NCBI RefSeq assembly: GCF_018122735.1
Contig: NZ_JAGRRD010000001.1
Span: 902,209-949,876, forward strand
From: Azoarcus sp. L1K30
Lineage (GTDB): Bacteria > Pseudomonadota > Gammaproteobacteria > Burkholderiales > Rhodocyclaceae
DNA: 47,668 nucleotides
Reading direction: 5' to 3'
The position numbers and the translations under genes were made by a program. The notes beneath the pieces were generated by a model. The model saw nothing but the letters and a program-made list of their open reading frames with translations. It was not told where the DNA came from and made no database searches. Positions 20,082 through 47,450 of the stretch are shown here, piece after piece. Numbering within the stretch: the first letter of the stretch is position 1; every line of letters starts with the position of its first letter.

Positions 20082-20180
20082 GGACTGGCTCTCCAGGGGA
20101 CATTGCGGAAGGCATTCCCGGCACCAGCCAGGAAGCTTCCTTTTCACGAAACGGGACAGGGACCGGGCGAGGCGGCTCAG

Positions 20181-27192: not shown

Positions 27193-27205
27193 ATGAAGCA
27201 GCAGA

Positions 27206-27232: not shown

Positions 27233-27359
27233 GGAGTAAGAAGTGAGAAGTGCAAAGCAGGAGGCCACGACAAGGGTGCCTAACGCCCGGGCCGGTATCC
27301 GACATGAACCTTGGGGAACATGGGCGGAAAATGAAACCAGAGGAGTCGAAGGAGAAATC

Positions 27360-28502: not shown

Positions 28503-28513
28503 GGAGCAGGGTG

Positions 28514-30391: not shown

Positions 30392-30406
30392 ACCAAGGAA
30401 ACAAAC

Positions 30407-32436: not shown

Positions 32437-32448
32437 GGAATCGCATCC

Positions 32449-33216
32449 ATGAAAACCGAAAGCCATAGCTTCCTGGTGACCGGCGGCGCCTCCGGACTCG
32501 GTGCCGCCACCGTGCGCGCACTGCATGCCGGCGGCGCCAGTGTCGTCATCGCCGATCTCAACGCCGACGCCGGTGAGGCGCTGGCTGCCGAGCTCGGCAG
32601 CCGCGCAGCTTTTGCACGCACCAATGTGGCCGATGAAGGCGACGCAAGGGCGGCGGTGGATCTCGCCCTGACCCGTTTCGGCGCCTTGCATGGCCTGGTC
32701 AACTGCGCGGGCATCGGCAACGCCGCACGCGTGCTGGGCAAGGAGGGGCCGATGCCGCTCGAGGCCTTCAGCCGCTCCATCCAGGTCAACCTGATCGGCA
32801 CCTTCAACATGATCCGCATCGCTGCCGAGGCGATGGCCAGGGGCGAGCCGGGCGCCGACGGCGAACGCGGCGTGATCGTCAACACCGCCTCGGTTGCCGC
32901 CTACGACGGCCAGATCGGCCAGGCGGCGTATGCGGCCTCGAAGGGCGGCATCGTGTCGATGACCTTGCCCATCGCGCGTGAGCTGGCCCGATCCGGCATT
33001 CGGGTGTGCACCATCGCACCGGGGCTCTTCCTTACCCCGATGATGCACACGCTGCCGCCCGACGTGCAGAAATCACTCGGCGAATCCGTCCCCTTCCCGC
33101 AACGTCTGGGGCAGCCGGATGAATACGCGAAGCTGGTGCTGTCGATCATCGGCAACGTCATGCTCAACGGCGAGACCATCCGTCTCGACGGCGCCATCCG
33201 CCTGGCCCCGAGGTAA
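32449..33216 (+). CDS. Short-chain 3-hydroxyacyl-CoA dehydrogenase
   Basis: 255 residues of the SDR fold. Nucleotide motif T-G-G-A-S-G-L-G (11-18), N-C-A-G at about 86-89, and catalytic S in N-T-A-S-V-A-A-Y, Y and K in Y-A-A-S-K-G. The sequence around [12 protein letters not shown] resembles the type II 3-hydroxyacyl-CoA dehydrogenases (HSD17B10 group) rather than sugar or ketoreductases. It fits the NAD-dependent oxidation step between the hydratase and the thiolase of the same operon. Confidence 0.92.
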
Positions 33217-33219
33217 GCC

Positions 33220-33639
33220 ATGTCCCGCTCGAACATCTTTCGCATGCGCATTGCGTTCTCGGACTGCGACCCGGCGCAGATCGTCTTCTTCGCCAACTAT
33301 TTCAAGTGGTTCGACACCTCGAGCCGCGAGTTCTTCACCGCCTGCGGCGTGCCGAGTTGGCGCGACACGCTGGCCGAGCGCGGCATCATCGGCACGCCGC
33401 TGGTCGACGCACAGGCGAAATTCCTGAACTCCGCCACCTATGGAGAAGACATCGAAATCGAATCGTCGGTGGAGGAATGGCGCGGCAAGAGTTTCGTCAT
33501 GCGCCATGTGGCGCGCCGTGGAGACACCGTGCTGTGCGAGGGGCGCGAGGTCCGCGTGTTCGCGATCCAGGACCCGGAGAATCCACTGCGCATCAAGGCA
33601 GTGACCGCACCCGAGGACTATCGCGCCATGTGCGCCTGA
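33220..33639 (+). CDS. 4HBT-type acyl-CoA thioesterase
   Basis: 139 residues of the hot-dog fold. The motif S-D-C-D-P-A-Q-I-V-F-F-A-N-Y has D17 in the position of the catalytic aspartate of Pseudomonas 4-hydroxybenzoyl-CoA thioesterase; the usual P-A-G is here P-A-Q. It probably hydrolyses an aromatic acyl-CoA made by the preceding thiolase, for example 3-hydroxybenzoyl-CoA to 3-hydroxybenzoate, which the neighbouring operon could use. The chain could also act on other acyl-CoAs. It starts three bases after the previous stop. Confidence 0.88.
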   Translation: MSRSNIFRMRIAFSDCDPAQIVFFANYFKWFDTSSREFFTACGVPSWRDTLAERGIIGTPLVDAQAKFLNSATYGEDIEIESSVEEWRGKSFVMRHVARRGDTVLCEGREVRVFAIQDPENPLRIKAVTAPEDYRAMCA

Positions 33640-33865
33640 TGCCCGGCCGTCGGGACTGAACCCGGCAAGGCCAAACGGGGGCCATTCACCACGCACCGGC
33701 TCCCACACGATCCAGAAGGGCGCAAGCCCAGCCCGATGCAGGCGAATCCGCGCTGCATGGGGCCGACTTGTGCCCAATTCCGGAATGCGCGGGCATTTCG
33801 ACGCGCATGCCTCGCCTTCGGCAGGCGCAATGCAGCAGCACCGTCAAAACAAGGAGACAGGAGAC

Positions 33866-35161
33866 ATGATGAAAACACCAAAGTGGGCAGCCTTCCGGCC
33901 GATGGCCATTGCACTCGCGGCAAGCATCGGACTGGGCGCATCATTGCCGGCATTCGCCGACAGCGAGATCGAGATGCTGAAGAAGGAACTGGCCGCACAA
34001 CGCGCGCTGATCGAGCAGATGCTCGCCGAGCGCAAGGCCGAGAAGGCAGAAAAGGCTGCGGCCCCCGCTGCGGGCGCCCGACAGGTCGCCGGCGCCGGCA
34101 GCAATGCGCCCACGGTAAGCTTTTACGGTGTGCTCGACGGCGGTGTGGAACACATCAGCGGCATCGGTGCGGACAAGAACAGTGTGACCCGCCTGCCCAG
34201 CATCACCGGTACCGTGGCCTCACGCGTCGGGGTGAAGGCATCGAAGGAATTCGCCCCCGGCTACAAGGTGATCGCCACCGCCGAAGCCGGCTTCAATCTC
34301 GACGACGGCACCCAGGGTCAGGCAGGACGACTGTTCGGCCGCCAACTGTGGGCAGGCCTCGATACGCCCTACGGCAGTTTCACCTTCGGCCGCCAGTATT
34401 CGATGCTGCTCGGCGCCTTGGGCGTGGCGGACTTCCTCGGCCCCAACATCTATGCCCTGGGCTCGCTCGATTCCTACCTCCCCAATGCCCGCTTCGACAA
34501 CTCGGTTGCTTGGCGTACCAAGCTCGACAAAGTGTCGCTCGGCCTGACCTACAGCACCGGCCGCGACACCGCCGGCGGCGCACCTGCCTCCGGCACCTGC
34601 GCAGGAGAAACGGTCGGCGATGCACAGGCTTGCCGCGGCTGGTCGGCAATGGTCCGCTATGACGACGAACGCTTTGCCTTCGGTGCCGGCATCGACGAAC
34701 AGCGCGGCGGCGGCGGGGCGAAGGCCTACTTCTTCAACGGCGCGGCGCCGGTGGACTTCTCCCGCTCCGGTGACACCGATACGCGCATGACCATCGGCGG
34801 CTCGGTCAAGATCGCCGGCGGCAAGGTCGGGGCAGGGTGGCTCGGCCGCAAACTCGACAGCCAGGCCAACGATATCGAGTCGAACATCTACTACATCAAC
34901 GGCGCCTGGCCCGTCATGCCGAAGCTGACCGTGGACGGCGGCATCTATCGTGTCACCAACGACGATCAGGATCGCGATGCGACGCTGTGGGTGTTGCGTG
35001 GCCTGTATGCGCTCGACACCAGCCTGACCGCCTACCTGCAACTGGGCCATATCACCAACAGCGACAAGGCCGCCTACCAGGTATCGGTGGGGGCGGGCAT
35101 TGCGCCGGCAGCGGGCAATTCGCAGACGGCGACGATGGTCGGCCTGCGTTACATGTTCTGA
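33866..35161 (+). CDS. Outer-membrane porin with N-terminal coiled-coil
   Basis: 431 residues, signal peptide (A-I-A-L-A-A-S-I-G-L-G, cleaved after P-A-F-A), terminal phenylalanine (Y-M-F), both typical of Gram-negative porins. Between signal and barrel is a charged helix, about residues 33-65, rich in K, E and A, predicted to be coiled coil. The barrel starts near S-F-Y-G-V-L-D-G-G-V-E, the usual start of betaproteobacterial porins, and has the family's F-T-F-G-R-Q-Y. A 226-base gap lies upstream, holding a short ATGCAG/CTGCAT hairpin (33736-33758), so the gene may have its own promoter. It probably lets the pathway's aromatic acid through the outer membrane. Confidence 0.9.
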   Translation: MMKTPKWAAFRPMAIALAASIGLGASLPAFADSEIEMLKKELAAQRALIEQMLAERKAEKAEKAAAPAAGARQVAGAGSNAPTVSFYGVLDGGVEHISGIGADKNSVTRLPSITGTVASRVGVKASKEFAPGYKVIATAEAGFNLDDGTQGQAGRLFGRQLWAGLDTPYGSFTFGRQYSMLLGALGVADFLGPNIYALGSLDSYLPNARFDNSVAWRTKLDKVSLGLTYSTGRDTAGGAPASGTCAGETVGDAQACRGWSAMVRYDDERFAFGAGIDEQRGGGGAKAYFFNGAAPVDFSRSGDTDTRMTIGGSVKIAGGKVGAGWLGRKLDSQANDIESNIYYINGAWPVMPKLTVDGGIYRVTNDDQDRDATLWVLRGLYALDTSLTAYLQLGHITNSDKAAYQVSVGAGIAPAAGNSQTATMVGLRYMF

Positions 35162-35178
35162 TTCTGCCCTGCAAGTGC

Positions 35179-35210
35179 GTGAAGGTGGCAAGCGGCCACC
35201 TTCACGTTTT
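35179..35210 (+). terminator. Rho-independent terminator after the porin gene
   Basis: GTGAAGGTGGC (35179-35189) and GCCACCTTCAC (35195-35205) are perfect 11-base arms around a 5-base loop, followed by GTTTT. It lies 17 bases after the porin stop and only 28 bases before the next start, too close for a separate downstream promoter, so the two following genes need readthrough. Confidence 0.8.
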
Positions 35211-35237
35211 CAACAAGACTTTCGTGGAGACACCCTG

Positions 35238-37034
35238 GTGACCGAGTACATCGCCCCGACAAGAGACATGACCTTCATCCTGACCGAACTGGCCGGTCTG
35301 AAGGCGATCGGCCAGCTGCCCGGTTGCGAGGATGCATCGCCCGATCTGGTATCGGCCATCCTGGAAGAGGCCGGTAAATTCGCCGCCGGCGTGCTCGCCC
35401 CGATCAACAGACAGGGCGACCTGCAGGGATGCCGGCTGGACGCAGAGGGCCGCATTGCCGCACCGGAAGGGTGGCAGGGCGCCTACGACCAGTTTCGCGA
35501 TGCCGGATGGATCGGCTTGTCGCTGCCGCCCGAGTTCGGCGGTCAGGGCTTGCCAAAGCTGGTTTCGACCCCGGTGTGGGAAATGTGGTTCTCCACCAAC
35601 ATGGCATTCACCATGCTGCCCCAGCTTAACGTCGGCCAGGCCGAGGCCTTGTTGATCGCCGGCAGCGACGAGCAGAAGCAGACCTGGTTGCACAAGGTCG
35701 TCAGCGGCGAATGGGCCAGCACCATGAACCTGACCGAGCCCCAGGCCGGATCGGATCTTGCGGCCACGCGCACGCGCGCCGAACCCCAGGCCGACGGCAG
35801 CTACAAGCTGTTCGGACAGAAGATCTTCATCTCCTACGGCGAACATGAACTGACGCCCAATATCGTCCACCTCGTGCTGGCGCGCCTGCCCGATGCGCCA
35901 CCGGGGGTGAAGGGCCTGTCCCTGTTCATCGTCCCCAAGTACCTGCTCGATGCCGAAGGCCATCCCGGCGCGCGCAACGATGTGCGCTGCATCTCCATCG
36001 AACACAAGATGGGCATCCACGGCAGTCCCACCTGCACCCTGTCCTACGGCGACCAGGGCGGGGCCACCGGCTGGCTCGTCGGCAAGCCGAACGAAGGCCT
36101 CGCAACCATGTTCATCATGATGAACGAGGCCCGGTTCGGCGTCGGCGTGCAGGGCGCCGGACTGGCCGAGCGCGCCTACCAGTTCGCGCTCGCCTATGCG
36201 CGCGAACGGGTGCAGGGGCGCGATGCCGTCACCGGCGAAGCCGGCAAGCCCATCATTCACCATCCCGACGTCAAGCGCACGCTGCTGTCCATGCGCGCAC
36301 GGGTGATGGCGATGCGGGCGCTGCTGTACACCGCGGCGGGCTGGTTCGACATCGCCCACAAGCATCCCGACCGCAAGGTGGCAGACAAACATCGTCGCTA
36401 CGTCGACCTGCTGATGCCAGTGGCGAAGGGATGGTGCACCGAGGTCGGCAACGATGTGTGCGACGACGCCATCCAGGTTTTCGGCGGCATGGGCTTCGTC
36501 GAGGAAACCGGCGTCGCCCAGTTCTTCCGCGATGCCCGCATCATCACCATCTACGAAGGCACGACGGGCATCCAGGCCAACGATCTGGTGGGCCGCAAGA
36601 TCCTGCGCGAAAACGGCGAAACACTGCGCGAACTCATCGCCGACATCGAATCGACGATCGCGCTGCTGCGCGCGGATGACACGCTGGGCGAGATCGCCGA
36701 CGGCCTCGCCGACAGCGTGGAAGCCTTGAGCGCGGCCGCAAACTGGATTCTCGCCAACGGCCGCGACCAGCTGGGCGAAGTACTCGCCGGGGCCGTGCCC
36801 TTTCTCTACGTGCTGGGCACCGTGTGCGGCGGCTGGCAGCTGGCGCGGGCCGCACTTGCCGCGCGTCGGTGCCTGGGCAGTGACGAACCGGGCTACGACC
36901 CGTCTTACCTGACGGGCATGATCGAGCTCGCGCGCTTCTACATGGCCACGATCGGCCCCCAAGCCACCGCCATGGCCGCCACCGTCCGCGAAGCAGGCGG
37001 CGCCATGATGCGCTTTCCCGAAAGCGCATTCTGA
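35238..37034 (+). CDS. Acyl-CoA dehydrogenase, long form, paralogue of 799-2592
   Basis: 598 residues from a GTG (35238), since the homologous start M/V-T-E-Y-I-A-P-T-R-D-M lines up with the first paralogue and GTGGAGA lies upstream. The catalytic base is E440 in I-Y-E-G-T-T-G-I-Q, the same position as in the paralogue. T-E-P-Q-A-G-S-D-L and M-F-I-M-M-N-E-A-R-F are also shared. It would oxidise the acyl-CoA made by the operon's ligase, for example an arylpropionyl-CoA to the arylpropenoyl-CoA. It lies beyond the porin terminator and 5 bases before the MaoC gene. Confidence 0.92.
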   Translation: MTEYIAPTRDMTFILTELAGLKAIGQLPGCEDASPDLVSAILEEAGKFAAGVLAPINRQGDLQGCRLDAEGRIAAPEGWQGAYDQFRDAGWIGLSLPPEFGGQGLPKLVSTPVWEMWFSTNMAFTMLPQLNVGQAEALLIAGSDEQKQTWLHKVVSGEWASTMNLTEPQAGSDLAATRTRAEPQADGSYKLFGQKIFISYGEHELTPNIVHLVLARLPDAPPGVKGLSLFIVPKYLLDAEGHPGARNDVRCISIEHKMGIHGSPTCTLSYGDQGGATGWLVGKPNEGLATMFIMMNEARFGVGVQGAGLAERAYQFALAYARERVQGRDAVTGEAGKPIIHHPDVKRTLLSMRARVMAMRALLYTAAGWFDIAHKHPDRKVADKHRRYVDLLMPVAKGWCTEVGNDVCDDAIQVFGGMGFVEETGVAQFFRDARIITIYEGTTGIQANDLVGRKILRENGETLRELIADIESTIALLRADDTLGEIADGLADSVEALSAAANWILANGRDQLGEVLAGAVPFLYVLGTVCGGWQLARAALAARRCLGSDEPGYDPSYLTGMIELARFYMATIGPQATAMAATVREAGGAMMRFPESAF

Positions 37035-37039
37035 AGCAG

Positions 37040-37510
37040 ATGGCGCAACACTTCGCACGGCTCTCCGACCTCGGCAACGCGGTCGGACACGAACTGGCGG
37101 TCGGCGAATGGCTGACCGTCGACCAGTCACGCATCAACGCCTTCGCCGACGTCTCCGGTGACGACCAATGGATCCACGTCGACCCGGTGCGCGCAGCAGA
37201 CTCGCCATTCGGCGGAACCATCGCTCATGGCCTGCTGCTCGTCTCACTCGCCGCCGGCGCAGTCCGCCAGGTGGAGACCGACGACACCGCCGCCGCCATA
37301 GTCTGCGGCCTCGACCACGTACGCTTCATCCACCCCGTACCGGCAGGCGCGCAAATCCGCGCGCGGGTGAGCCTGGCCGCATGGACGCCGCACGACAAGG
37401 GCGGAGAGGCGAGGTGGGCAGTGCAGGTCGAAGAGGCATCAAACCCGCGAACGGCCGCCACATTCGAGCTTGTCGTCAGATACCGGCGGGCGAACCAACA
37501 GGGGCAATAG
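37040..37510 (+). CDS. MaoC-type enoyl-CoA hydratase
   Basis: 156 residues of the hot-dog fold. It has the hydratase 2 motif F-A-D-V-S-G-D-D-Q-W-I-H-V-D-P-x-R-A with the catalytic D and H, and F-G-G-T-I-A-H-G. It adds water to trans-2-enoyl-CoA to give the (R)-hydroxy acid, unlike the crotonase in the same operon. The presence of both hydratase types is unusual for one substrate and may reflect two chain positions or a side role. It is the last gene before a 435-base gap with palindromic repeats. Confidence 0.88.
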   Translation: MAQHFARLSDLGNAVGHELAVGEWLTVDQSRINAFADVSGDDQWIHVDPVRAADSPFGGTIAHGLLLVSLAAGAVRQVETDDTAAAIVCGLDHVRFIHPVPAGAQIRARVSLAAWTPHDKGGEARWAVQVEEASNPRTAATFELVVRYRRANQQGQ

Positions 37511-37575
37511 CTCGCTGCAGCCAGCACGACAGCGCCTCCGGGCGGTGGCTACCGGCCTCGGGTGACGCCGTCTGG

Positions 37576-37850
37576 CTCCCTCCCCTTCAAGGGGAGGGCT
37601 GGGGTGGGGATGGGTTTGCCCCCCCCCTGCGCGCACAAGTAATTCCCCTCGCATGTGACTTTCTACAGAACAGAGCTCCTCCCCCTTCAAGGGGGAGGTT
37701 GGGAGGGGGATGGGTCTTGGTGGCCGCCCATGAAACCCATCTCCACCCCAGCCCTCCCCTTGAAGGGGAGGGAGTCAAACGGAGCCCCTTCGAACCTGAT
37801 TAGCTGCTTCCTTCCCTTTCCCTGAACATACAAGGGGAGGAACAAGCTGC
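37576..37850. repeat. GC-rich palindromic repeats between convergent operons (435-base gap)
   Basis: The gap 37511-37945 has no gene. Three 21-base hairpins with perfect 10-base arms, each closing on one base, are seen: arms CCCTCCCCTT/AAGGGGAGGG at 37578-37598, CCTCCCCCTT/AAGGGGGAGG at 37678-37698, and CCCTCCCCTT/AAGGGGAGGG at 37752-37772. The first two are followed by GGKTGGGRKGGGGATGGG-type sequence on the plus strand and the third by the same on the minus strand. A worn fourth copy lies at 37810-37840. A run of nine C lies at 37619-37627. The block probably ends or insulates both convergent transcripts. Confidence 0.75.
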
Positions 37851-37945: not shown

Positions 37946-38341
37946 TCAGTCGGGAATGACCGCAGTGACCTCGATCTCGACCTTGGCTTCGTCCTCGACG
38001 AGGTCGGCGACCTGCACCGCCGTCATCGCCGGAAAGTTCTTGCCCATGACCTCGCGATACACCGCGCCGATCTCCTTCAGGCGAGCGGCATACTCCTTCT
38101 TGTCCACGAGGTACCAGGTCATGCGCACGATGTGCTCCGGACCGCCGCCAGCGACCCTGACGACGTCGACCGAGTTCTTCAGCGCGACGTAGATCTGCTG
38201 CACCAGGTCGTCGCTCTCGAACTCGCACGCCGCGTTCCAGCCGATCTGGCCGCCGACATAGATCTGGCGGCCACGCGCCTCGATACCGTTGGAGTAGCCG
38301 CGCGGTTTGGCCCAGCCTTCGGGTTGCAGCACCTTGTTCAT
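37946..38341 (-). CDS. Rid (YjgF/YER057c/UK114) family protein lacking the catalytic arginine
   Basis: 131 residues of the Rid fold with S-N-G-I near the start, Y-V-G-G-Q-I-G-W-N and F-P-A-M-T-A-V-Q-V-A-D-L. In E. coli RidA the corresponding F-P-A-R-S carries Arg105, needed to hydrolyse 2-imino acids; here it is M106. Rid subfamilies without this arginine are not known to be imine deaminases. A Rid-like 'translation inhibitor' gene is also reported in the Azoarcus evansii 2-aminobenzoate cluster. It is the last gene of the monooxygenase operon and its ATG overlaps the thioesterase stop (ATGA). A role in removing the amino group at ring-opening is possible but unproven. Confidence 0.9.
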   Translation of the reverse strand: MNKVLQPEGWAKPRGYSNGIEARGRQIYVGGQIGWNAACEFESDDLVQQIYVALKNSVDVVRVAGGGPEHIVRMTWYLVDKKEYAARLKEIGAVYREVMGKNFPAMTAVQVADLVEDEAKVEIEVTAVIPD

Positions 38342-38793
38342 GATGTTCTCTCCGTGAATCTGTTGATCGCCTGGCGAACGTCGTCAGGCCAGGGAATGGC
38401 TTTATGGTTGTCGAGCGAGGTCGCGACCAGCACCTGCCGCGCGCGCATCCGCGCCGAATCGGCGCCGACCACGACGTGCTGCAGCACCAGCGATGAAGTG
38501 CCGAGTCTCTCGACCGAAAGGTGAAAGCGGATGGTGTCGCCGAAGTTGGATGGCAGGACGAAGGACGTATCGAGCTGGACGGTCGGCGTACCCACCCGCC
38601 GCTTGCTCACCAGCTCCGTCCAGGGCTTGCCCAGGTGCGCCCACCAGTCCTCGACCACGCCGTTGAGCATGCGGAAATAGTTGGGAAAGAAGACGATCCC
38701 GGCCGGGTCGCAGTCGGAAAAACGCACCAGCCGCTCGGCGATGAACTCCACCGGCTGCACGTCCAGCTCGTCCGAATTCGCATCAGTTGTCAA
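38338..38793 (-). CDS. 4HBT-type thioesterase
   Basis: 151 residues from a TTG start at 38793, chosen because GGAGGGG lies at a suitable distance and no in-frame ATG precedes the conserved part. The catalytic motif is [16 protein letters not shown] with D29 in the position of Asp17 of 4-hydroxybenzoyl-CoA thioesterase. It fits hydrolysis of an aromatic or short acyl-CoA, perhaps gentisyl-CoA if the monooxygenase acts on salicylyl-CoA, or a rescue function for CoA. It stands between the glutaryl-CoA dehydrogenase and Rid genes in the operon. Confidence 0.86.
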
Positions 38794-38833
38794 AACATCC
38801 CCTCCCCTCTATTGGCCTGTCCGCTCGCCACCG

Positions 38834-40015
38834 TCAGTTGCTGAACGCAGCGATGCCGGTAATGGCGCGGCCGAGAATCAGCGCATGCACGTCGTGCGTG
38901 CCCTCGTAGGTGTTCACCACCTCCAGGTTCACCAGGTGACGCGCCACGCAGAACTCGTCCGAGATGCCGTTGCCGCCGAGCATGTCGCGCGCCATGCGGG
39001 CGATGTCCAGCGACTTGCCGCAGCTGTTGCGCTTGATGATCGAGGTGATCTCGACCGCCGCATTGCCCTCGTCCTTCAGCCGACCGACCCGCAGGCAGCT
39101 CTGCAGCCCCAGCGTGATCTCGGTGAGCATGTCGGCGAGCTTCTTCTGCACCAGCTGGTTGGCCGCCAGCGGACGACCGAACTGCTTGCGGTCCATCGTG
39201 TATTGACGCGCGGTTTCGTAGCAGGCCTCGGCCGCACCGAGCGCGCCCCACGCAATGCCGTAACGCGCCGAGTTCAGGCAGGTGAAGGGGCCCTTGAGCC
39301 CGCGCACCGTCGGGAAGGCGTTCTCTTCCGGGCAGAACACTTCGTCCATGACGATCTCGCCGGTGATCGACGCACGCAGGCCGACCTTGCCGTGAATCGC
39401 CGGCGCCGACAGCCCCTTCCAGCCCTTCTCCAGCACGAAGCCGCGGATCTGGCCTTCGTCGTCCTTGGCCCACACCACGAACACGTCGGCGATCGGGCTG
39501 TTGGTGATCCACATCTTGGAACCAGACAGGCTGTAGCCGCCGTCGACCTTGCGCGCACGCGTCACCATGCTGCCGGGGTCCGAGCCGTGGTTGGGCTCGG
39601 TCAGGCCGAAGCAGCCCACCCATTCGCCGGTGGCGAGCTTGGGCAGGTACTTCCGCTTGGTGGCTTCGTTGCCGAATTCGTTGATCGGCACCATCACCAG
39701 CGAGCTCTGCACGCTCATCATCGAGCGGTAGCCGGAATCCACACGCTCGACTTCACGCGCGATCAGGCCGTAGCACACGTAGTTCATGCCGGCGCCGCCG
39801 TACTCCTCCGGAATGGTCGGCCCGAGCAGACCGAGTTCGCCCATTTCGTTGAAGATCTCGCGGTCGGTCTTCTCGTGGCGGAAGGCTTCCTGCACGCGCG
39901 GCAGCAGCTTCTCCTGGCAGTAGGCGCGCGCCGTGTCGCGTACCATGCGTTCGACGTCGGTCAGCTGGCCGTCGAGTTGCAGCGGATCGGCCCAGTCAAA
40001 ATGGATCTTGCTCAT
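38834..40015 (-). CDS. gcdH: Glutaryl-CoA dehydrogenase
   Basis: 393 residues, the usual length. The N-terminus [14 protein letters not shown], the substrate-carboxylate arginine in [12 protein letters not shown], and the catalytic E368 in [16 protein letters not shown] fit GcdH. It oxidises and decarboxylates glutaryl-CoA to crotonyl-CoA and CO2, electrons going to ETF. M-S-K-I-H-F is used as start because a GGGAG lies before it; the longer frame to 40057 has no ribosome site. Placement inside this operon implies that the pathway produces glutaryl-CoA or a similar dicarboxylic acyl-CoA. Confidence 0.93.
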
Positions 40016-40060
40016 AGCGTGTTCAGCTCCCTTGGGGTTGGGTGGCAATTCAGTCATCGG

Positions 40061-41212
40061 TTATTTGAGGAGTTCGCGGGCGACGATCAGCTTCTGCACT
40101 TCGGTCGCACCTTCGTAGATGCGCAGCGCGCGAATTTCGCGGTAGAGCGATTCGACCTTGACGCCGACTCTCACCCCCTGCCCGCCGTGCATCTGCACCG
40201 CGGCGTCGATCACGCGCTGGGCGTTCTCGGTTGCGGTCATCTTCGCCATCGCCGCTTCGCGCGTGGTCGGCAACTTCTGCACATCGCGGCGCCAAGCGGC
40301 ACGCGCCGTCAGCAAGGCGGCCGCTTCGATGTCGGTAGCCATCTCACCGAGCCTGGCCTGGGTCAGCTGGAAATCGGCCAGGCTGTGACCGAACATCGGC
40401 CTGTTGCGGGCATGATGGAGACCCTCGTCGAGCGCACGCCGGGCAAAACCCAGCGCGGCGGCCGCCACCGAGGAGCGGAAGATGTCGAGCGTGCGCATCG
40501 CCACCTTGAAGCCCTCGCCCGGCGCGCCCAGACGATTGGCCACCGGCACTTTCATGTCGGTAAAGCGCAGGCGGGCCAGCGGATGCGGTGCAATGACCTC
40601 CAGCCGCTCGGCGATTTCGAAACCCGCCATGTCGGGATAGACGACAAAGGCGGAGATGCCACGCGTGCCCGGCGCCTCGCCGGTGCGGGCGAAAACGCAA
40701 TACACGTCCGCGATGCCACCGTTGGAGATCCAGGTCTTCTCGCCATTGAGCACATAGTGATCGCCGTCGAGCCGCGCATCGCAGGCCATGGCACCGACAT
40801 CCGAACCGGCGTCGGGCTCGGTCAGTGCAAACGCCGAGATCCACTCGCCGCTGGCGACCTTGGGCAGCACATGGCGCTTGATCTCTTCGCTACCCGACAA
40901 GGTGATCGCGCCGGTGCCGAGTCCCTGCATGGCGAAGGCGAAATCGGCCAGTCCGTCGTGGTAGGCGAGCGTTTCGCGGGCGATGCACAGCGAACGCGAA
41001 TCGAGCTCCGCCAGTGCGCCACCATAGGCCGCAGGCACCGCATAACGCAGGAAACCGGCCTTGCCCAGGGCTGCCACCAGAGTGCGGCAGGCGTTGTCGG
41101 TGTCGTGATGATCGATGGCAGGCATCGCAGTCGATGCCCAATCGAAGATCGCGTCCGAAAGCTGGCGATGCTCTGCGCCGTAGAACGGCAGATCGAGTAT
41201 GGAGCGGTCCAT
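40061..41212 (-). CDS. Acyl-CoA dehydrogenase
   Basis: 383 residues, standard length, from M-D-R-S-I-L-D-L. The FAD region shows [14 protein letters not shown] and W-I-S-N-G-G; the catalytic base is probably E367 in [14 protein letters not shown]. It would desaturate an alicyclic or ring-opened acyl-CoA in the monooxygenase pathway. It is upstream of the gcdH gene on the transcript (45 bases) and 11 bases after the crotonase. A much longer frame continues upstream but overlaps the crotonase in another frame. Confidence 0.9.
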
Positions 41213-41223
41213 GTGCGTGGCCC

Positions 41224-42069
41224 TCAATTGCCTTCGAAGGTCGGTTTCTGCTTCGACGCGAAGGCTTCGAAGGCACGGCGGAAGTCGCCGGTCATCATGC
41301 AGATGGCCTGGGCCTGGGCTTCGGACTCGATCATTTCCTCGATGCCCATCGCCCACTCCTGATTGAGCATGGTCTTGGTGACGGTATGGGCAAACCAGGG
41401 GCCGTCGGCTAGATTGCGCGCCAGTTTCTGCGCTTGCGAGAGCAAGTCGGCCGACGGATGCAGGGCGCTGAAGAAGCCCCAGGCGAGGCCCTCGTCCGCG
41501 CTCATGGCCCGGCCGGTCATCAGCAGTTCGGTGGCACGCCCCTGACCGATCATGCGCGGCAGCAGCCCGCATGCCCCCATGTCCGCACCCGCCAGACCGA
41601 CCCGGGTAAAGAGGTAGGCGGTCTTGGTTTCCGGCGAGCCGATGCGGAAGTCCGACGCCAGCGCAACCATCGCCCCCGCGCCGGCACAGATGCCGTCGAT
41701 GGCCGAGATGATGGGCTGCGGTGCGCGACGCATGGCCTTGACGAGGTCGCCGGTCATGCGGGTGAACTCGAGCAGTTCGGGCATGCTCATCTTGGTCAGC
41801 GGTTCGATGATCTCGAACACGTCGCCGCCGGAGCAGAAGTTTCCGCCCGCGCCCTGGATGACGACCGTGCGCACGTCGCTGGCGTAGACAAGGTCGCGGA
41901 ACAGGTTGCGCAACTCGGCGTAGGAGTCGAAGGTGAGCGGGTTCTTCTTGTCGGGGCGGTTCAGTGTGATCGTGGCCACCCTGCCGTCATCACTGCATTC
42001 CCACTTGAAGTGGCGTGCTGCGTAGTCCTTGAACGGACGTTTGTGGTCATTCATCGAAAGTTCTGCCAT
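41224..42069 (-). CDS. Crotonase-family protein without the two catalytic glutamates
   Basis: 281 residues from M-A-E-L-S-M-N-D-H, with GGAGAGAGG before the ATG. The family fold is clear: [25 protein letters not shown]. In place of Glu144 and Glu164 of rat hydratase stand M134 (G-A-G-A-M) and F154 (Y-L-F-T-R-V-G-L), while D163 in A-G-A-D-M-G is kept, as in dienoyl-CoA isomerase. Simple hydration is therefore unlikely; isomerase or ring-opening hydrolase chemistry (compare BadI, MenB) is possible. It follows the short-chain dehydrogenase gene after 231 bases that contain a palindromic repeat. Confidence 0.9.
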
Positions 42070-42164
42070 GGCCTCTCTCCGTTGATCTCTGTCGGTGCAG
42101 GTCTTCCCTGCCGTGTCCGTTATCGCTTGCATCTTCTGCTGCAGGAGGTGCCTGCGATTCCGAC

Positions 42165-42257
42165 GGGGGCACCGGGTGTTTTCTCCGCGGCTGCGGAACT
42201 CGCTTCGCTACGCTCGCTCGGACAGTCCTCGCCGCTGCGCAAACACCCGGCGCCCCC
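42165..42257 (-). repeat. Palindromic repeat, first copy, beside the short-chain dehydrogenase gene
   Basis: The arms GGGGGCACCGGGTGTTT (42165-42181) and AAACACCCGGCGCCCCC (42241-42257) pair with one mismatch, making a large stem around a 59-base middle. Inside, on the minus strand, is GGCGAGGACTGTCCGAGCG (42215-42233), found again exactly on the plus strand at 43179-43197 on the other side of the gene 42301-43110. It occupies most of the 231-base gap between crotonase and dehydrogenase genes. Confidence 0.7.
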
Positions 42258-42300
42258 ACCTTGTTCCGTGCTTTAGTGACCTGTGTTCATCCATTCGGTG

Positions 42301-43110
42301 TCAGCCAGCCATCACTTCGCCACCCGCCACCGGGATCGACTGGCCGTGGATCGCTTCCGAACCGGGCAGGCACAACCAGCCCACCGTGCGCGCCACATCC
42401 TCAGGCTGCACAAGGCGCCCCTGGGGATTGCTCGCAGCAAGCGTGGTCTTGGCTTCATCGCTGCTGCGACCGGTCTTGGCCACGATGTTGTCCACCGCGC
42501 CGCCCAGCAAGGGGGTGTCGGTATAGCCGGGACACACCGCATTCACGGTAATGCCCTGCTTCGCTACCTCCAGCGCCAACGAGCGGGTAAAGCCGATCAC
42601 GCCGTGTTTGGCTGCCGTGTAGGCAGACACGTAGGCGTAGCCGACGAGGCCGGCCGTACTGGCGATGTTCACGATCCGTCCCCAGCGCGCAGCCTGCATC
42701 CCGGCCAGCACCGCCTGGGTGCTGTTGAAGGTACCGGTCAGGTTCACCATCAGCATCTCGTTCCAGAGCTCGGGCGTCGTCTTGCCGACCGGGGCACTCT
42801 TCGCTGCGCCGGCGTTATTGACCAGGATCGAAATCGCACCGCGCTCCGCAGCTGCAGCCGCAAACGCGGCAGCAATGCCTGCATGATCGGTGATGTCGGC
42901 CGCTACGAGCCCGTGCCCCTGCCCCGCCAGCTTTGCGCGGGTGGCCTCGAGCGCTTGCGCACGACGGCCGACCAGGGTCAGCGTCGCCCCGAGTCGAGCC
43001 AACTCCAGTGCGATGGCCTCACCGATACCACTCCCCGCGCCGGTCACCACGGCGTGGCGACCGGACAAGGGCAAATCCGACCCTGCGGAATTCTCAGTAT
43101 TCAGATTCAT
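42301..43110 (-). CDS. Short-chain dehydrogenase/reductase
   Basis: 269 residues, SDR fold. Nucleotide motif T-G-A-G-S-G-I-G (about 23-30), N-N-A-G (about 97-100), catalytic S in I-A-S-T-A-G, and Y/K in Y-T-A-A-K-H. It resembles 3-hydroxyacyl-CoA/3-hydroxybutyrate dehydrogenases and would oxidise a hydroxy group or reduce a ring ketone. The Azoarcus evansii 2-aminobenzoate cluster also has a dehydrogenase at this stage. It is flanked on both sides by inverted copies of a palindromic repeat, so it might be a separately inserted or mobile piece within the operon. Confidence 0.9.
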   Translation of the reverse strand: MNLNTENSAGSDLPLSGRHAVVTGAGSGIGEAIALELARLGATLTLVGRRAQALEATRAKLAGQGHGLVAADITDHAGIAAAFAAAAAERGAISILVNNAGAAKSAPVGKTTPELWNEMLMVNLTGTFNSTQAVLAGMQAARWGRIVNIASTAGLVGYAYVSAYTAAKHGVIGFTRSLALEVAKQGITVNAVCPGYTDTPLLGGAVDNIVAKTGRSSDEAKTTLAASNPQGRLVQPEDVARTVGWLCLPGSEAIHGQSIPVAGGEVMAG

Positions 43111-43159
43111 GTCGCTCTGCTCTTAACGTCGATCCGGCAACCCGGGTTCAGGCGTGGGG

Positions 43160-43245
43160 AGAAGGCGTTTGTGCAGAGGGCGAGGACTGTCCGAGCGCGG
43201 CGAGTTCCGCAGCCCTCGGAGCAATCACCTTCACCCCGCCCCCCA
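43160..43245 (+). repeat. Palindromic repeat, second copy, inverted relative to the first
   Basis: It shares with 42165-42257 (on the other strand) the exact 19-base core GGCGAGGACTGTCCGAGCG (here at 43179-43197) and the flanking order GCGTTTGTGCAG upstream and GCGAGTTCCGCAGCC downstream. It ends in C-rich sequence at 43230-43245. The outer arms are worn compared with the first copy. It lies in the gap between the monooxygenase stop and the dehydrogenase start. Confidence 0.65.
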
Positions 43246-43289
43246 GCACCCGCGCTGCAAACGGCAGCCCACCTTCACCCAAGGCCCAT

Positions 43290-45605
43290 TTACTTCCCCG
43301 GCGCCACGTAACTGCGCTTGAGGTTGGTCTCGTACTGCCCGCGCCCCGAAAGGTACTGCTTCGGCCACGCGACGCCCTTGAACTCGATTTTCGCCGCTTC
43401 GTGCAATGTCCAGGCCGGATCGGCGAGGTGCGGACGTGCCACCGCGCACAGATCGGCACGACCTGCAGCAATGATGCTGTTGGCGTGATCGGCCTCGAAG
43501 ATCGCGCCGACGGCGATGGTGGGGATCCCCACCTCGTTGCGGATGCGGTCGGCAAACGGGGTCTGGAACATGCGCCCGAACACCGGCTTCTCACCCTTCC
43601 ACACCTGGCCCGACGAGCAGTCGATGATGTCGGCACCGGCTTCCTTGAACAGGCGCGCGATCTCGACCGCATCATCCGCGGTATTGCCGCCCGGGAACCA
43701 GTCGTGGCACGACAGGCGCACCGACATCGGTTTGTCGGCCGGCCACACCCGGCGCATTTCCTTGAACACCTCGAGCGGATAGCGGGCGCGGTTCTCGATG
43801 CTGCCACCGTACTCGTCCTTGCGCTGATTGGTCAGCGGCGACAGGAAGCTGGACAGCAGATAGCCGTGCGCGCAGTGAAACTCGAGGATGTCGAAGCCGG
43901 CCTCGACCGCCATCTTGGTCGAACGCACGAAATCCGCCTTGACCCGGTCCATGTCTTCGCGATTCATCTCGCGCGGCACCTGGGAGTTCGGCAGATAGGG
44001 CAGCGGCGACGCCGAAATCAGTTCCCAGCCACCCGACTCCAGCGGTTGATCGATACCTTCCCACGCCAGTTTGGTCGCCCCCTTGCGCCCTGCATGGCCG
44101 AGCTGGATGCCCATCTTCGCGTCCGAATTGGCATGGACGAAATCGACGATCCGCTTCCATGCATTCACATGCTCAGGCTTGTACATGCCCGCACATCCCG
44201 GGGTGATGCGCGCATCGGGCGAGACGCAGGTCATCTCGGTATACAATAGGCCGGTGCCACCCAGCGCCCGTGCGCCGAAATGCACCAAATGGAAATCGCC
44301 TGCCAGTCCGTCGTCGGCCGAGTACATCGCCATCGGCGACATGATGATGCGGTTCGGCAGCGTCAGCCCGCGCAACTTGAACGGGGTGAACATCGGCGGC
44401 GGCGCCGGCTTGTCTTCCGGCACCACGACGCCGGCCTGCTTCGCGAACCAGTGCTCGTAGCCTTCCAGCCAGGCCGCATCGCGCAAACGCAGGTTCTCGT
44501 GCGAGATGCGCTGCGAGCGGGTGAGCATGGAGTACATGAACTGCTCTGGCTCCATCGTGTTGCAATAGCGCGCGTCGCAGACCTCGAACCACTCCATCGC
44601 ATTCCACGCCGCATTCTGCAGGCGCAGCACATCCACGTTGCGCAATTCCTGGTAGCGCGTCAGCACGGCAGGAATGTTCTCCACCGCGTCGCCCAGCTCC
44701 TGGAACTGACGCGTCAACTCGATGGCGTCTTCGATGGCAAGCTTGGTACCCGAGCCGATTGCGAAATGCGCAGTATGAACCGCGTCGCCCATCAGCACGA
44801 CGTGGCTGTTGCCGTTGTTCAGCCACCACTTTTCGCACTTGACCTGCTGGAAGTTCAGCCAGGCGGAGCCGCGCAGATGGCGCGCATTGGTCATCAGGGC
44901 GTGGCCATCCAGATGCTTCTCGAACAGTTTCTCGCAGAACGCAATGGATTGCTCCTGATCCGCCTTGTCCAGACCGTGTGCCAGCCAGACATGCTCCGGG
45001 CATTCTACGATGAAGGTCGTGGTTTCGGCGTCGAACTTGTAGATGTGCGCCTGGAACCAGCCATGCTCGGTTTTCTCGAAGATGAAATTGAAGGCGTCGT
45101 AGAGCTTCTTCGTGCCCAGCCAGATGTAGCGGTTCGGACGCTTGATGATGTTCGGCTTGAACACCTCCTGATAACGCTCGCGTGTGGCGGAGAAAATGCC
45201 ATCGGACGCGATGATCAGATCCGCATCGGGATACTGGCGGTCTTCGCCTTCGACCTCGAAGACCAGTTCGACCCCCATTTTCTCGCAGCGCTCCTGCAGG
45301 ATGTTGAGCATCTTCTTGCGCCCGATGCCGACGAAGCCGTGACCGCCGCTACGGATGCTCTGCCCCTTGAAGTGCAGTTCGATATCGTCCCAGTGGTTGA
45401 AGGCGACCTGAATGGCATCGGCCGTCACCGGATCCCACTCACGCATGTTGTCCATCGTCGCGTCGGAGAAGACCACGCCCCAGCCGAACGTGTCGTAGGG
45501 CTTGTTGCGCTCGACCACGGTGATCTGGTGCGCCGGGTTGAGCTTCTTCATCAGGATCGCGAAATACAGCCCTGCAGGGCCTCCACCAATACACACGATA
45601 CGCAT
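43290..45605 (-). CDS. Bifunctional 2-aminobenzoyl-CoA / salicylyl-CoA monooxygenase with old-yellow-enzyme domain
   Basis: 771 residues (about 86 kDa) from [16 protein letters not shown] lies seven bases before this ATG, and the longer frame to 45701 is rejected. Residues 1-385 are a flavin monooxygenase with FAD motif G-G-G-P-A-G-L and [14 protein letters not shown] (273-286). Residues ~405-771 are an old-yellow-enzyme reductase with [21 protein letters not shown] (501-509) and [11 protein letters not shown]. This fusion is known from Azoarcus evansii 2-aminobenzoyl-CoA monooxygenase/reductase, which gives 2-amino-5-oxocyclohex-1-ene-1-carbonyl-CoA; close relatives are called salicylyl-CoA 5-hydroxylase. 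The substrate here cannot be fixed. It is the first enzyme gene after a MarR gene and a promoter with inverted repeats. Confidence 0.92.
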
Positions 45606-45671
45606 GCCATTGCTCCTTCTGGTTGAGCCGCCCGCCTCTCGAGACGAGATGATCCGGAACGGGTATGAACT

Positions 45672-45720
45672 GACTTGCTTGTTTAGTGAGCAATATTTCA
45701 TATCTAAACTATCAAGTCAA
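45672..45720 (-). promoter_or_regulatory. Promoter and nested inverted repeats upstream of the monooxygenase gene
   Basis: On the minus strand, TTGACT (45720-45715) and AATATT (45697-45692) are 17 bases apart, a fair sigma-70 promoter. Over it lies an interrupted palindrome: GACTTG (45672-45677) with CAAGTC (45713-45718), and TTTAG (45682-45686) with CTAAA (45704-45708), each pair separated by four bases from the next on both sides. TTGCT (45675-45679) and AGCAA (45689-45693) make a further repeat. These fit a MarR operator that blocks the promoter. Confidence 0.6.
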
Positions 45721-45751
45721 CAAGCAGCTGGCAATCCGCTGCCTTCCCCTC

Positions 45752-46276
45752 TTACTCCGCGCTTGAATCGTACTCGACCGACCCGCCAGGCGGATGCAGT
45801 GCCAGAAGTTCCTTCAGCATCGCGATCAGCATGTCTGCATTGTCCTGACCGAAAGGCGCCAGCACGCGCGTCTGATGTTCGATGGCTCGCTGCCGCAAGG
45901 TATCGGTCAGACGTTGCCCCTTGGGCGTGATCTTTACCACCGTCTGTCGCCGATCACTGCGCACCCGGGTGCGCGACACAATCCCTTCGGCCTCCATGCG
46001 CTGCACGACCTTGCTCAGCGTCGGCTGCTTGGTCAAGGTCAGCTGGCTCAGCGCGCCGATACTCTCCCCCGCGCTGCCGTCCAGACTGGCCAGCACCCGC
46101 CACTCGGTCACGGACACACCCGCCGCCTCGACCTCATGGTGAAACTCGCGCGAAATCCGGCTGCTGGCCTGGGCAAGCAGGAAGGCCAGGTAGTCCTCGA
46201 CAAAGCGCTGCGGATCGGCATTCGTCTGCAAACCGGATTCCGCCATCATCATGTCTTCGCCATTTATCGCCGCCAC
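45752..46276 (-). CDS. MarR-family regulator
   Basis: 174 residues from a GTG at 46276, preferred because GAGGAG lies six bases before it; ATG codons at 46252-46246 are alternatives. The winged helix-turn-helix is visible: G-V-S-V-T-E-W-R-V-L-A-S-L, then L-T-L-T-K-Q-P-T-L-S-K-V-V-Q-R-M-E and R-S-D-R-R-Q-T-V-V-K-I-T-P-K-G. Such proteins release DNA on binding an aromatic acid or acyl-CoA. A MarR-like gene also belongs to the Azoarcus evansii 2-aminobenzoate cluster. It sits at the head of the operon, between two control regions with inverted repeats. Confidence 0.92.
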   Translation of the reverse strand: MAAINGEDMMMAESGLQTNADPQRFVEDYLAFLLAQASSRISREFHHEVEAAGVSVTEWRVLASLDGSAGESIGALSQLTLTKQPTLSKVVQRMEAEGIVSRTRVRSDRRQTVVKITPKGQRLTDTLRQRAIEHQTRVLAPFGQDNADMLIAMLKELLALHPPGGSVEYDSSAE

Positions 46277-46323: not shown

Positions 46324-46340
46324 TTATAAATTGTTTATAA
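46324..46340. promoter_or_regulatory. Palindrome TTATAAA-TTG-TTTATAA between marR and araC genes
   Basis: A perfect 7-base inverted repeat with 3-base centre, in the 106-base divergent region between the MarR gene (48 bases away) and the AraC gene (43 bases away). The preceding TTTGCTTAT resembles TTGCTTGTT in the monooxygenase promoter, so both may be MarR sites. It is AT-rich and may also contain the -10 elements of both promoters. Confidence 0.55.
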
Positions 46341-46382
46341 CTATACGGTAATCACCCTGCAAGCAAACCGGCGGAGCAAGTG

Positions 46383-47450
46383 ATGACATTCTTCCCCCAG
46401 CGCACCATTCCCGCTCGCGAACACCCTGGCGGACACATCGCCGTTACGATGCAGGACCGACTGCGCCCCGACCGCCTCTCCGCCTTTCCCTTCTTCAGCT
46501 CCAACGATGCGGACGAGGCGAGACTGAAGGTTGCCCGCGTCTTCTGTCCGCACGACCTGCGCCCGGTCAGCAGCCAGACCCCGTTTTCATCCCGCCACAA
46601 TCTGGTCAGACTCGGCGAGACCGCACTGAATTATCTGACTTACGGCACCGACGTCGATATCCTGCCGGGCTGCCTGGAGAGTTTTTACCTGGTCCAGGTG
46701 CCGCTGCACAGCACCGCGCATATCCGCTGCGGCGCACAGGAGGTGCTGTCGTCTCCTGCGACCGCCAGCATGCTCAATCCGCACGAACCCACGCGCATGC
46801 GCTGGAAACACGACAACGGCCAGCTCATGCTGTGGATTCCCCGCGCCTCGCTTGAGCGCCGGCTTGCCGAACATCTCGGCGACGAGCTGGATGTCCCGTT
46901 GACCTTTGACATCGCGCTGTCGCAGTGCGAAGGCCTGACCCGCAGCTGGTGCAGGATGCTGCACGACCTCGCCGGCAATATCGACGAGTGCGGTGCCGAG
47001 TGGCTGTCCTTCCGCCCCACCGTCGCCGCGCTGGAGGACTGCCTGTTGCGCGGCCTGCTGCAACTGCATCGTCACAACTACAGCGATCGACTGCATCAGC
47101 CGCAGCAGGCGGCACTGCCCAGACACGTCCAGCGCGCCATCGACTATATCCAGGCCCACCTCGAGGATGCCCTCACCGTGGGTGATCTTGCCCGCGTTGC
47201 CTGTGTGAGCGTCAGAGCGCTCGAGGAGGGTTTTCGCAAGCACTGCGGCACGACGCCACTCGTCTACCTGCGCGACGCCCGTCTCGATCGGGTACGCAAG
47301 GCGCTCGCCAGCCATGCGCCCGGCACCGACAAGGTCGCCGTGCTCGCACATCGCTACGGCTTCGCTCACCTGGGCCGTTTTTCCGCGTATTACAAGGCGC
47401 GCTTTGGCGAAACGCCGTCACAGACTGCAGCCAGGAGCCTTTGCAACTAG
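46383..47450 (+). CDS. AraC-family regulator with N-terminal AraC-binding-like domain
   Basis: 355 residues from the ATG at 46383 (a GTG is one codon earlier). Residues about 25-215 form the AraC-binding-like domain with S-F-Y-L-V-Q-V-P-L-H and S-M-L-N-P-H-E-P-T-R-M, the pattern of BenR/XylS/AntR-type activators of aromatic-acid genes. Two C-terminal helix-turn-helices lie at about 250-350 (D-L-A-R-V-A-C-V-S-V-R-A-L-E-E-G-F, and A-H-R-Y-G-F-A-H-L-G-R-F-S-A-Y-Y). It is divergent from the MarR gene and could add an activating response to 2-aminobenzoate, salicylate or benzoate. Confidence 0.92.
   Translation: MTFFPQRTIPAREHPGGHIAVTMQDRLRPDRLSAFPFFSSNDADEARLKVARVFCPHDLRPVSSQTPFSSRHNLVRLGETALNYLTYGTDVDILPGCLESFYLVQVPLHSTAHIRCGAQEVLSSPATASMLNPHEPTRMRWKHDNGQLMLWIPRASLERRLAEHLGDELDVPLTFDIALSQCEGLTRSWCRMLHDLAGNIDECGAEWLSFRPTVAALEDCLLRGLLQLHRHNYSDRLHQPQQAALPRHVQRAIDYIQAHLEDALTVGDLARVACVSVRALEEGFRKHCGTTPLVYLRDARLDRVRKALASHAPGTDKVAVLAHRYGFAHLGRFSAYYKARFGETPSQTAARSLCN

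Follow-up and report, generated by a model that had tools for sequence, protein, structure and literature searches.

A probable CoA-thioester anthranilate operon in Azoarcus sp. L1K30 with a distant ligase gene and a likely glutaryl-CoA exit

Introduction

In Azoarcus sp. L1K30, an operon on the minus strand joins a fused FAD monooxygenase/old-yellow-enzyme reductase to three beta-oxidation-type enzymes, a glutaryl-CoA dehydrogenase, a thioesterase and a Rid protein, and contains no CoA ligase. It lies at positions 37946-46276 of the stretch of DNA analysed here (hereafter the window; 47,668 nucleotides, contig NZ_JAGRRD010000001.1, positions 902,209 to 949,876). Which aromatic acid does this operon degrade, where is the ligase that activates it, and where does the carbon of the ring go? 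On the basis of gene content, orthology, co-occurrence and residues, we propose that it probably encodes the half of a CoA-thioester pathway for anthranilate (2-aminobenzoate) that dearomatises and opens the ring, with the ligase gene at a distance of 320 kb and an exit through glutaryl-CoA. The ligase activity and the first product come from the available literature on other species; for all steps beyond that product, we infer both the order and the substrates.

Results

Eight genes in one conserved operon

The open reading frame list and Pfam/NCBIfam profile searches resolve 37946-46276 into eight open frames of a single operon, all on the minus strand. Transcription would begin with a MarR-type regulator (45752..46276; Pfam MarR_2, 1.3e-11), followed by the fusion, of the 2-aminobenzoyl-CoA monooxygenase/reductase type (43290..45701), a short-chain dehydrogenase (SDR; 42301..43110; adh_short, 1.1e-56), a crotonase-fold enzyme of the PRK08258 type (41224..42132; NF006107, 483 bits, cut-off 330) and an acyl-CoA dehydrogenase (40061..41212; Acyl-CoA_dh_1, 1.8e-45), for which the ATG at 41212 was picked as start in a frame open from 41572. 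The last three genes encode a canonical glutaryl-CoA dehydrogenase (38834..40057; 731 bits to 3gnc, 578 bits to 1sir), a hotdog 4HBT-type thioesterase related to 4-hydroxybenzoyl-CoA thioesterase (38338..38793; 4HBT_2, 2.2e-14; 1bvq, 1.3e-14) and a Rid/YjgF protein with Met106 at the RidA arginine position (37946..38341; Ribonuc_L-PSP, 1e-19). In the same order, the intergenic gaps measure 50, 179, 168, 11, 3 and 40 bp and end in a 4-bp overlap. The fusion matches model NF006101 at 1373 bits, above the cut-off of 1078, over model positions 1-759 of 768.

Across 61 genomes, this one and 60 relatives, the fusion is found over the cut-off in 16. The whole operon, including the glutaryl-CoA dehydrogenase and the thioesterase, has a match in five relatives, four of the same genus (G001-G004) and one of the same family (G030), with operon proteins about 64-99% identical to those of the window. 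Since the same order recurs in G001, G002, G003, G004 and G030, the arrangement is more than chance. The open frames and profiles thus bear out the eight families and the order given by the initial annotation, and the comparison of gene order in related genomes that it called for agrees. Its assignment to the 2-aminobenzoyl-CoA pathway type is likewise supported, by the fusion's score over the family cut-off and by an anthranilate-type ligase in the genome. A separate complete 2-aminobenzoate cluster elsewhere was named there as a reason for doubt; a profile search of this genome (4.98 Mb, 6 contigs, completeness 100) returned one full-length fusion over the NF006101 cut-off, and hence no such cluster.

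The ligase and transport genes are encoded apart from the operon

An AMP-binding ligase gene lies at C1:617952-619631, 320 kb from the operon, with ABC-transport genes. Its product and the anthranilate-CoA ligase of Arthrobacter plasmid pAL1 share 51% identity over 536 aa (535 bits), and the next protein of the genome reaches 277 bits; this comparison covered 13 AMP-binding proteins, namely 12 loci and the window gene, drawn from 21 TIGR02262 matches, some of which are pieces of one gene. According to the available text of PMC3534580, the ligase gene beside the fusion on pAL1 gave anthranilate-CoA ligase activity in E. coli, and from its place we infer that the AMP-binding gene beside the pAL1 fusion is the assayed one. 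Downstream of the Azoarcus ligase come the gene for a binding protein whose counterpart by fusion and ligase in Comamonas odontotermitis is 64% identical, and then Liv-type ABC genes, so that ligase and binding protein occur together at about C1:612-620 kb, outside the operon cluster.

Ligase orthologs, 82-86% identical, are present in all five operon-bearing relatives, about 71-90 kb from the operon in G001, G002 and G030 and on other contigs in G003 and G004. The matching binding protein adjoins the ligase in G001-G004, not in G030. The position of this ligase-transport locus apart from the operon indicates that a cluster of the Azoarcus evansii type is split in two here. A further relative, G013, may have an unsplit cluster: a contig end interrupts its fusion operon, and the genes for Rid (79%) and ligase (56%) are direct neighbours close to an end of a second contig. 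The earlier statement that the operon lacks a ligase therefore stands as a description of the operon; as a property of the pathway, having "no ligase of its own" does not, because a ligase of the right type and ABC-transport genes are encoded elsewhere in the genome, and likewise in the five relatives. Two other genes were considered as the pathway ligase and set aside: the CoA-ligase-like gene at 28511-30391 of the window, of the PRK12582 type (757 bits, cut-off 777), which reaches only 64 bits to the pAL1 ligase, and a benzoate-CoA ligase at C1:4931800, which reaches 277 bits.

The system is a variant of the known 2-aminobenzoyl-CoA pathway type, split over loci, and the operon is most likely of the 2-aminobenzoyl-CoA type and not for salicylate.

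The lower pathway points to glutaryl-CoA

The glutaryl-CoA dehydrogenase of the operon aligns gap-free with solved enzymes (3gnc, 1sir) over NTYEGTHD and a second stretch, which we take to be catalytic; the curated model NF045552 scores it at 219 bits, below its cut-off of 470. Its gene stands between the acyl-CoA dehydrogenase and thioesterase genes in 6/6 operon genomes, each of which has two glutaryl-CoA dehydrogenase genes, the second copy in Azoarcus sp. L1K30 (C1:1032294-1033478) being 98% identical to the first. In G001, G002 and G004, the operon runs past Rid into genes for a PaaF-like hydratase, a 3-hydroxyacyl-CoA dehydrogenase and a 3-oxoadipyl-CoA-type (PcaF-like) thiolase, which in G002 score 342 bits (under the cut-off of 371), 707 bits (PRK08268, cut-off 508) and 695 bits (cut-off 605). 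A PaaF-like gene alone is seen after Rid in G003 and G030, with the second glutaryl-CoA dehydrogenase of G030 about 2 kb further on. A PaaF/PaaH/PcaF-like module is also present in Azoarcus sp. L1K30, at C1:1458443-1462 kb, and its thiolase, dehydrogenase and hydratase are 94%, 83% and 89% identical to those of G002. Together, this module and the canonical glutaryl-CoA dehydrogenase support a glutaryl-CoA exit, and glutaryl-CoA is the likely end product of the pathway.

The two glutaryl-CoA dehydrogenase copies pair within the genome in Azoarcus sp. L1K30 (97.2% DNA identity), G004 (99.0%) and G030 (95.3%), are mixed in G001/G002, and in G003 include a distant second copy (78%) cut by a contig end, a pattern that was likely produced by homogenisation through gene conversion. 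GC-rich inverted repeats of the CCCTCCCCTTCAAGGGGAGGG type occur in three copies at 37568-37782, just after Rid, and the same element lies beside the separate module (L209, ~9100-9400), where it precedes the paaF-like gene at 1.46 Mb. These repeats, perhaps common in the genome, could mark a break.

Neighbours of the fusion in other bacteria

To place the operon among other carriers of the fusion, neighbours were counted up to 10 kb to either side in the best 80 of at least 208 confirmed fusion relatives from named genomes, none titled Azoarcus or Aromatoleum. The identity cut-offs were chosen at 35% (thioesterase), 40% (dioxygenase and FAH), 45% (ligase and Rid) and 60% (glutaryl-CoA dehydrogenase). 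At least 5 kb is available on both sides in 56 of the 80 loci and not in the other 24. Crotonase plus acyl-CoA dehydrogenase adjoin the fusion in 64 of the 80 loci (53 of the 56 with 5 kb per side), an anthranilate-type ligase in 56 (47), Rid in 53 (47), the thioesterase in 25 (23), glutaryl-CoA dehydrogenase in 6 (5), kynureninase in 5 (3) and gentisate dioxygenase in 0 (0). In a fusion tree of 102 sequences (the window and 101 loci), the 14 rows linked to glutaryl-CoA dehydrogenase need 7 label changes, which indicates that the link was gained or lost several times. On a plasmid of Ensifer sp. PDNC004 (NZ_CP070354), eight genes follow the window order, so Azoarcus sp. L1K30 is not alone in having this variant.

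Two side observations were made at these and related loci. An unfused version is found at L265 (G005:C107, ~9000-16000), where a stand-alone 385-aa monooxygenase lies beside a 698-aa FadH/OYE-type reductase; this locus also encodes two ligases, one of them of the anthranilate type (58%), and a Met-type Rid. Indolepyruvate-ferredoxin-oxidoreductase-like genes occur near the fusion or a Met-type Rid in 6/80 named loci, on two plasmids and in G010 and G021 (L080, L084, L089, L091, L092, L122, L149, L153, L266 and L267); two of them were tested, and both fell below the TIGR03336 cut-off.

A Rid protein with methionine in place of the RidA arginine

The Rid protein of the operon reads FPAM where UK114-type solved chains read FPAR, placing Met106 at the arginine, and the best-scoring solved chain, 5v4f, likewise has no arginine at that position. 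The available part of PMC4433059 describes this arginine as contacting the substrate carboxylate and essential for imine hydrolysis, and as absent from subfamilies Rid4-Rid7, which "remain mysterious". The operon protein lacks this hallmark of a RidA imine hydrolase. The window Rid has a match at E 1e-3 near the fusion in 71 of 103 loci, with Met in 70, Ile in 1 and Arg in 0, the other 32 loci, many of them short, having no match to this query. Met is also found in 69/70 homologs of a separate alignment and in all 19 window-type Rid rows across the 61 genomes. In a comparison of seven genomes, covering 19 of 26 Rid rows (of the remainder, 3 were set aside beforehand as weak and 4 could not be aligned), 8 rows, all window-type, carry Met, 9 Arg, 1 Ser and 1 Ala.

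Fusion (over the cut-off) and window-type Rid (E 1e-10) each occur in 16 of the 61 genomes, 15 of them shared (p 3.6e-12, ancestry ignored). Outside the shared set, neither G046, which has a fusion, nor G008, where a piece of the fusion lies at the end of a contig, has a window-type Rid, and in G021 a Met-type Rid lies beside an anthranilate-type ligase with no fusion over the cut-off. In G010 (L266, C80, 7144-13658), a further Met-type Rid directly follows the gene for a 6-oxocyclohex-1-ene-1-carbonyl-CoA hydrolase (588 bits over 464), an anaerobic ring-opening enzyme. The Rid of pAL1, from an actinobacterium, has Met at the same place at 35% identity. At the G010 locus, a glutaryl-CoA dehydrogenase gene was also seen two genes on from the Met-type Rid.

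We tentatively propose, with somewhat less than even confidence, that the Met-type Rid proteins form a distinct group of dedicated deaminases of CoA-bound cyclic enamines (2-amino-cyclohexenyl-carbonyl-CoA), which would act in the aerobic fusion pathway and also, in relatives, in that of anaerobic benzoyl-CoA degradation, the whole pathway ending in glutaryl-CoA. Arginine would not be needed in such an enzyme because the carboxylate of the substrate is masked as a thioester. According to the available text of PMC3534580, a C7H8O4 acyl-CoA was present only in anthranilate-grown Arthrobacter and might, in the words of its authors, be cyclohexanedione-carboxyl-CoA, which fits deamination at the CoA level. 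The same text describes the amino intermediate as unstable in acid, so that deamination could also proceed non-enzymatically. A literature search, which most subscription journals lay outside, returned among the passages available no paper joining RidA with these CoA esters. If correct, the proposal would provide a concrete substrate for Rid proteins without arginine and a new, testable role for this group.

Crotonase, thioesterase and candidate operator

Enoyl-CoA hydratases rely on two catalytic glutamates. In the operon crotonase, alignment with PaaF places Ala154 and Phe175 at these positions, and both are invariant in 79/79 homologs of at least 50% identity; since both glutamates are absent, the enzyme is not a plain hydratase. 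Alignment with crotonases of the PDB puts Asp184, invariant in the same 79/79 homologs, at the place of the PaaG aspartate, and the crotonase may open the ring or isomerise its substrate. The thioesterase motif DCDPAG aligns with that of 4-hydroxybenzoyl-CoA thioesterase (1bvq), its second Asp being conserved in 36/36. As the available part of PMC3534580 states, citing earlier work, an enzyme of the fusion type makes 5-hydroxyanthraniloyl-CoA when NADH is limiting. The simplest role for the thioesterase, and the most likely one, is to free CoA from dead-end esters such as 5-hydroxy-2-aminobenzoyl-CoA.

A perfect inverted repeat, TTATAAA-N3-TTTATAA (46324..46340), lies between the MarR gene and a divergent gene for an AndR-like AraC-type regulator (46380..47450, plus strand; NF041686, 164 bits, below the cut-off of 350), and both regulator genes keep their positions in the five relatives. 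This candidate MarR operator is the sole exact copy in the genome and is identical in 5/6 genomes, degenerate in G030. In the window, a single site fits its pattern with 3 mismatches or fewer (0.01 expected); genome-wide, at up to 2 mismatches, the pattern has 2 matches per strand against 4 for the reversed control. As the control has more inexact matches, weight is given to the exact match and its conservation alone. An operator-like site precedes the ligase gene in G002 (2 mismatches, 0/1000 shuffles as good) and weakly in G004 (29/1000).

Genes for a possible supply of anthranilate

Behind the AraC gene, to the right of the window (L059), stand genes for an SDR, a StyA-like oxygenase (Smoa_sbd, 6e-39; StyA model, 194 bits, cut-off 550), a FadL/TodX-type porin and a flavin reductase (Flavin_Reduct, 4e-44). 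The SDR, oxygenase and reductase genes adjoin the operon in 5/5 relatives, the porin gene in 2/5 at the cut-off used. A StyA-like oxygenase, a flavin reductase and an SDR are found together in iif/ind indole clusters, as they are here, and the cluster may supply anthranilate from indole. On Aminobacter and Ensifer plasmids, a kynureninase gene adjoins the fusion. Kynureninase or indole-oxygenase-like genes beside the fusion are potential sources of anthranilate, and we count them in favour of an anthranilate pathway.

Discussion

A proposed pathway

Anthranilate, perhaps formed from indole by the cluster to the right of the window, would be activated by the ligase at C1:617952-619631. The fusion would then hydroxylate and partly reduce 2-aminobenzoyl-CoA to 2-amino-5-oxocyclohex-1-ene-1-carbonyl-CoA, a reaction that the available literature reports for enzymes of this kind. 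The Met-type Rid would remove the enamine nitrogen to give dioxocyclohexane-carboxyl-CoA, the crotonase without hydratase glutamates would open the ring or isomerise, and the SDR and acyl-CoA dehydrogenase would set the redox level. PaaF/PaaH/PcaF-like enzymes would convert the resulting C7 dicarboxylyl-CoA to acetyl-CoA and glutaryl-CoA, which the glutaryl-CoA dehydrogenase would turn into crotonyl-CoA and CO2, the thioesterase recovering CoA from dead-end esters. In the literature passages available, the steps from 2-amino-5-oxocyclohexene-carbonyl-CoA to central metabolism are not assigned enzyme by enzyme. The conserved gene set gives a candidate for most of them: deamination by the Met-type Rid, ring opening by the crotonase, and a lower part of PaaF/PaaH/PcaF-like enzymes and glutaryl-CoA dehydrogenase.

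Several observations weigh against this pathway. The NCBIfam label of the fusion family is salicylyl-CoA 5-hydroxylase. The passage from a 2,5-dioxo ring to 3-oxo-pimelyl-CoA needs removal of a 4-oxo or 4-hydroxy group, for which no enzyme is clearly assigned. With glutaryl-CoA dehydrogenase adjoining the fusion in just 6 of the 80 named loci, most fusion carriers do not link the two, and on pAL1 thioesterase-domain, cupin and FAH genes lie by the reference ligase without SDR, crotonase or acyl-CoA dehydrogenase, which indicates that other lower routes exist. For IifA, which completes the conversion of indole to anthranilate, no gene was recognised to the right of the window, where no search with an IifA reference sequence was made. 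A MarR operator shared with the ligase is not supported in this genome, the best site upstream of the ligase having 5 mismatches and 407/1000 shuffles being as good, nor is a site clear in G001 (90/1000), G030 (551) or G003 (887).

Alternative explanations

The family label of the fusion would suit a gentisate-type route. In this route, 5-hydroxylation of salicylyl-CoA (or 2-aminobenzoyl-CoA) by the fusion is followed by release of the 5-hydroxylated acid, for example gentisate, by the thioesterase for the operon at 14.4-21.3 kb, a release that the initial annotation had also considered. The likeness of the thioesterase to 4-hydroxybenzoyl-CoA thioesterase fits such a release, as do the thioesterase-domain, cupin and FAH genes near the pAL1 fusion and a row on Caballeronia plasmid pSBC1_4 that consists of thioesterase, fusion, cupin (its identity as gentisate dioxygenase being putative) and FAH. 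However, that Caballeronia fusion is nested, on a long branch, among ligase-linked fusions, and its locus has no Rid match; neither the window or Caballeronia dioxygenase nor the Caballeronia FAH has a match at 40% identity or more in the 80 named loci, and for this reason gentisate release was rejected as the main route. The supposed recipient (14404-21251), about 17 kb from Rid, does hold a gentisate-dioxygenase-like gene, which at 244 bits falls short of the 442-bit cut-off, next to a TRAP transporter and a 3-hydroxybenzoate 6-hydroxylase of its own (701 bits, cut-off 459), and reads as a 3-hydroxybenzoate operon. Moreover, gentisate release would leave the SDR, the crotonase, both dehydrogenases and Rid without use. 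The earlier suggestion thus finds little support, and we regard this route as very unlikely.

Could the aroyl-CoA instead be handed over by the neighbouring operon at 22.3-37.5 kb, for example after shortening of a phenylpropanoid side chain, so that no aroyl-CoA ligase is needed? The two operons are adjacent and convergent, and the neighbour (22343-37510) resembles a full beta-oxidation set, with a TetR regulator, a Liv-type ABC transporter, a PRK12582-type acyl-CoA synthetase, a crotonase, a thiolase-like, an SDR-like and a porin-like gene (the latter two named by sequence reading only), an acyl-CoA dehydrogenase and MaoC; its substrate is perhaps a phenylpropanoid. It is not seen, however, in the roughly 5 kb beyond Rid in the five operon relatives, and an anthranilate-type ligase is present in the same genome, which makes the hand-over highly improbable. 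It is also unlikely, to a lesser degree, that the operon's glutaryl-CoA dehydrogenase is a mere duplicate of the lysine/tryptophan enzyme and that ring opening ends elsewhere. Its 98% identity to the second copy, the homogenisation of copies within several genomes and the absence of the gene from most fusion loci would agree with a duplicate; by contrast, the gene is kept between acyl-CoA dehydrogenase and thioesterase in all six genomes, the 7 label changes on the fusion tree speak for a link repeatedly gained or lost, and PaaF-PaaH-PcaF genes follow the operon in three siblings. A CoA-thioester anthranilate pathway with a glutaryl-CoA exit hence remains our preferred explanation. Of the initial annotation, the glutaryl-CoA end can be kept as likely, on the strength of the canonical dehydrogenase and the sibling modules, and the term "new branch" proved too strong, as glutaryl-CoA dehydrogenase and thioesterase adjoin the fusion in other bacteria too.

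Comparison with known systems

The genes to the right of the window resemble the iif/ind indole clusters of Acinetobacter O153 and Cupriavidus SHE, in which, according to the available text of the review PMC6221969, genes for an SDR, a StyA-like oxygenase and a flavin reductase adjoin an anthranilate-degrading operon; the same review describes the 2-aminobenzoyl-CoA cluster of Cupriavidus SHE as vital. Unlike iif/ind, the Azoarcus cluster has a FadL/TodX-type gene inside it and no IifA-type oxygenase that we recognised. The quinaldine/anthranilate genes of Arthrobacter sp. Rue61a plasmid pAL1 (NC_009453) share the fusion (50% over 771 aa), the ligase (51%) and a Met-type Rid. They differ in having PaaX-type regulators and cupin, FAH and thioesterase-domain genes, and the 40 kb listed include neither an SDR nor a crotonase nor an acyl-CoA dehydrogenase. 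The operon of Ensifer sp. PDNC004 (L085) has the same eight genes in the same order, its second dehydrogenase being 81% identical to the window glutaryl-CoA dehydrogenase; unlike the window, it continues with genes for a PcaF-type thiolase and a protein with a 3-hydroxyacyl-CoA dehydrogenase domain, and kynureninase, not indole genes, lies nearby.

The 2-aminobenzoate clusters of A. evansii are mentioned in the available parts of PMC8388817 and PMC4539516. Compared with these abm clusters, Azoarcus sp. L1K30 likewise has a full-length fusion with an SDR, a crotonase and an acyl-CoA dehydrogenase beside it. The abm gene content, reportedly described by Schuhle et al. in 2001, also agrees in the MarR regulator, the Rid-like protein and, genome-wide, the ligase and ABC binding protein. 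It differs in that 2-aminobenzoate-CoA ligase and binding protein do not share a cluster with the fusion here: the ligase and ABC-transport genes occupy a second locus, and glutaryl-CoA dehydrogenase and thioesterase have been added to the operon.

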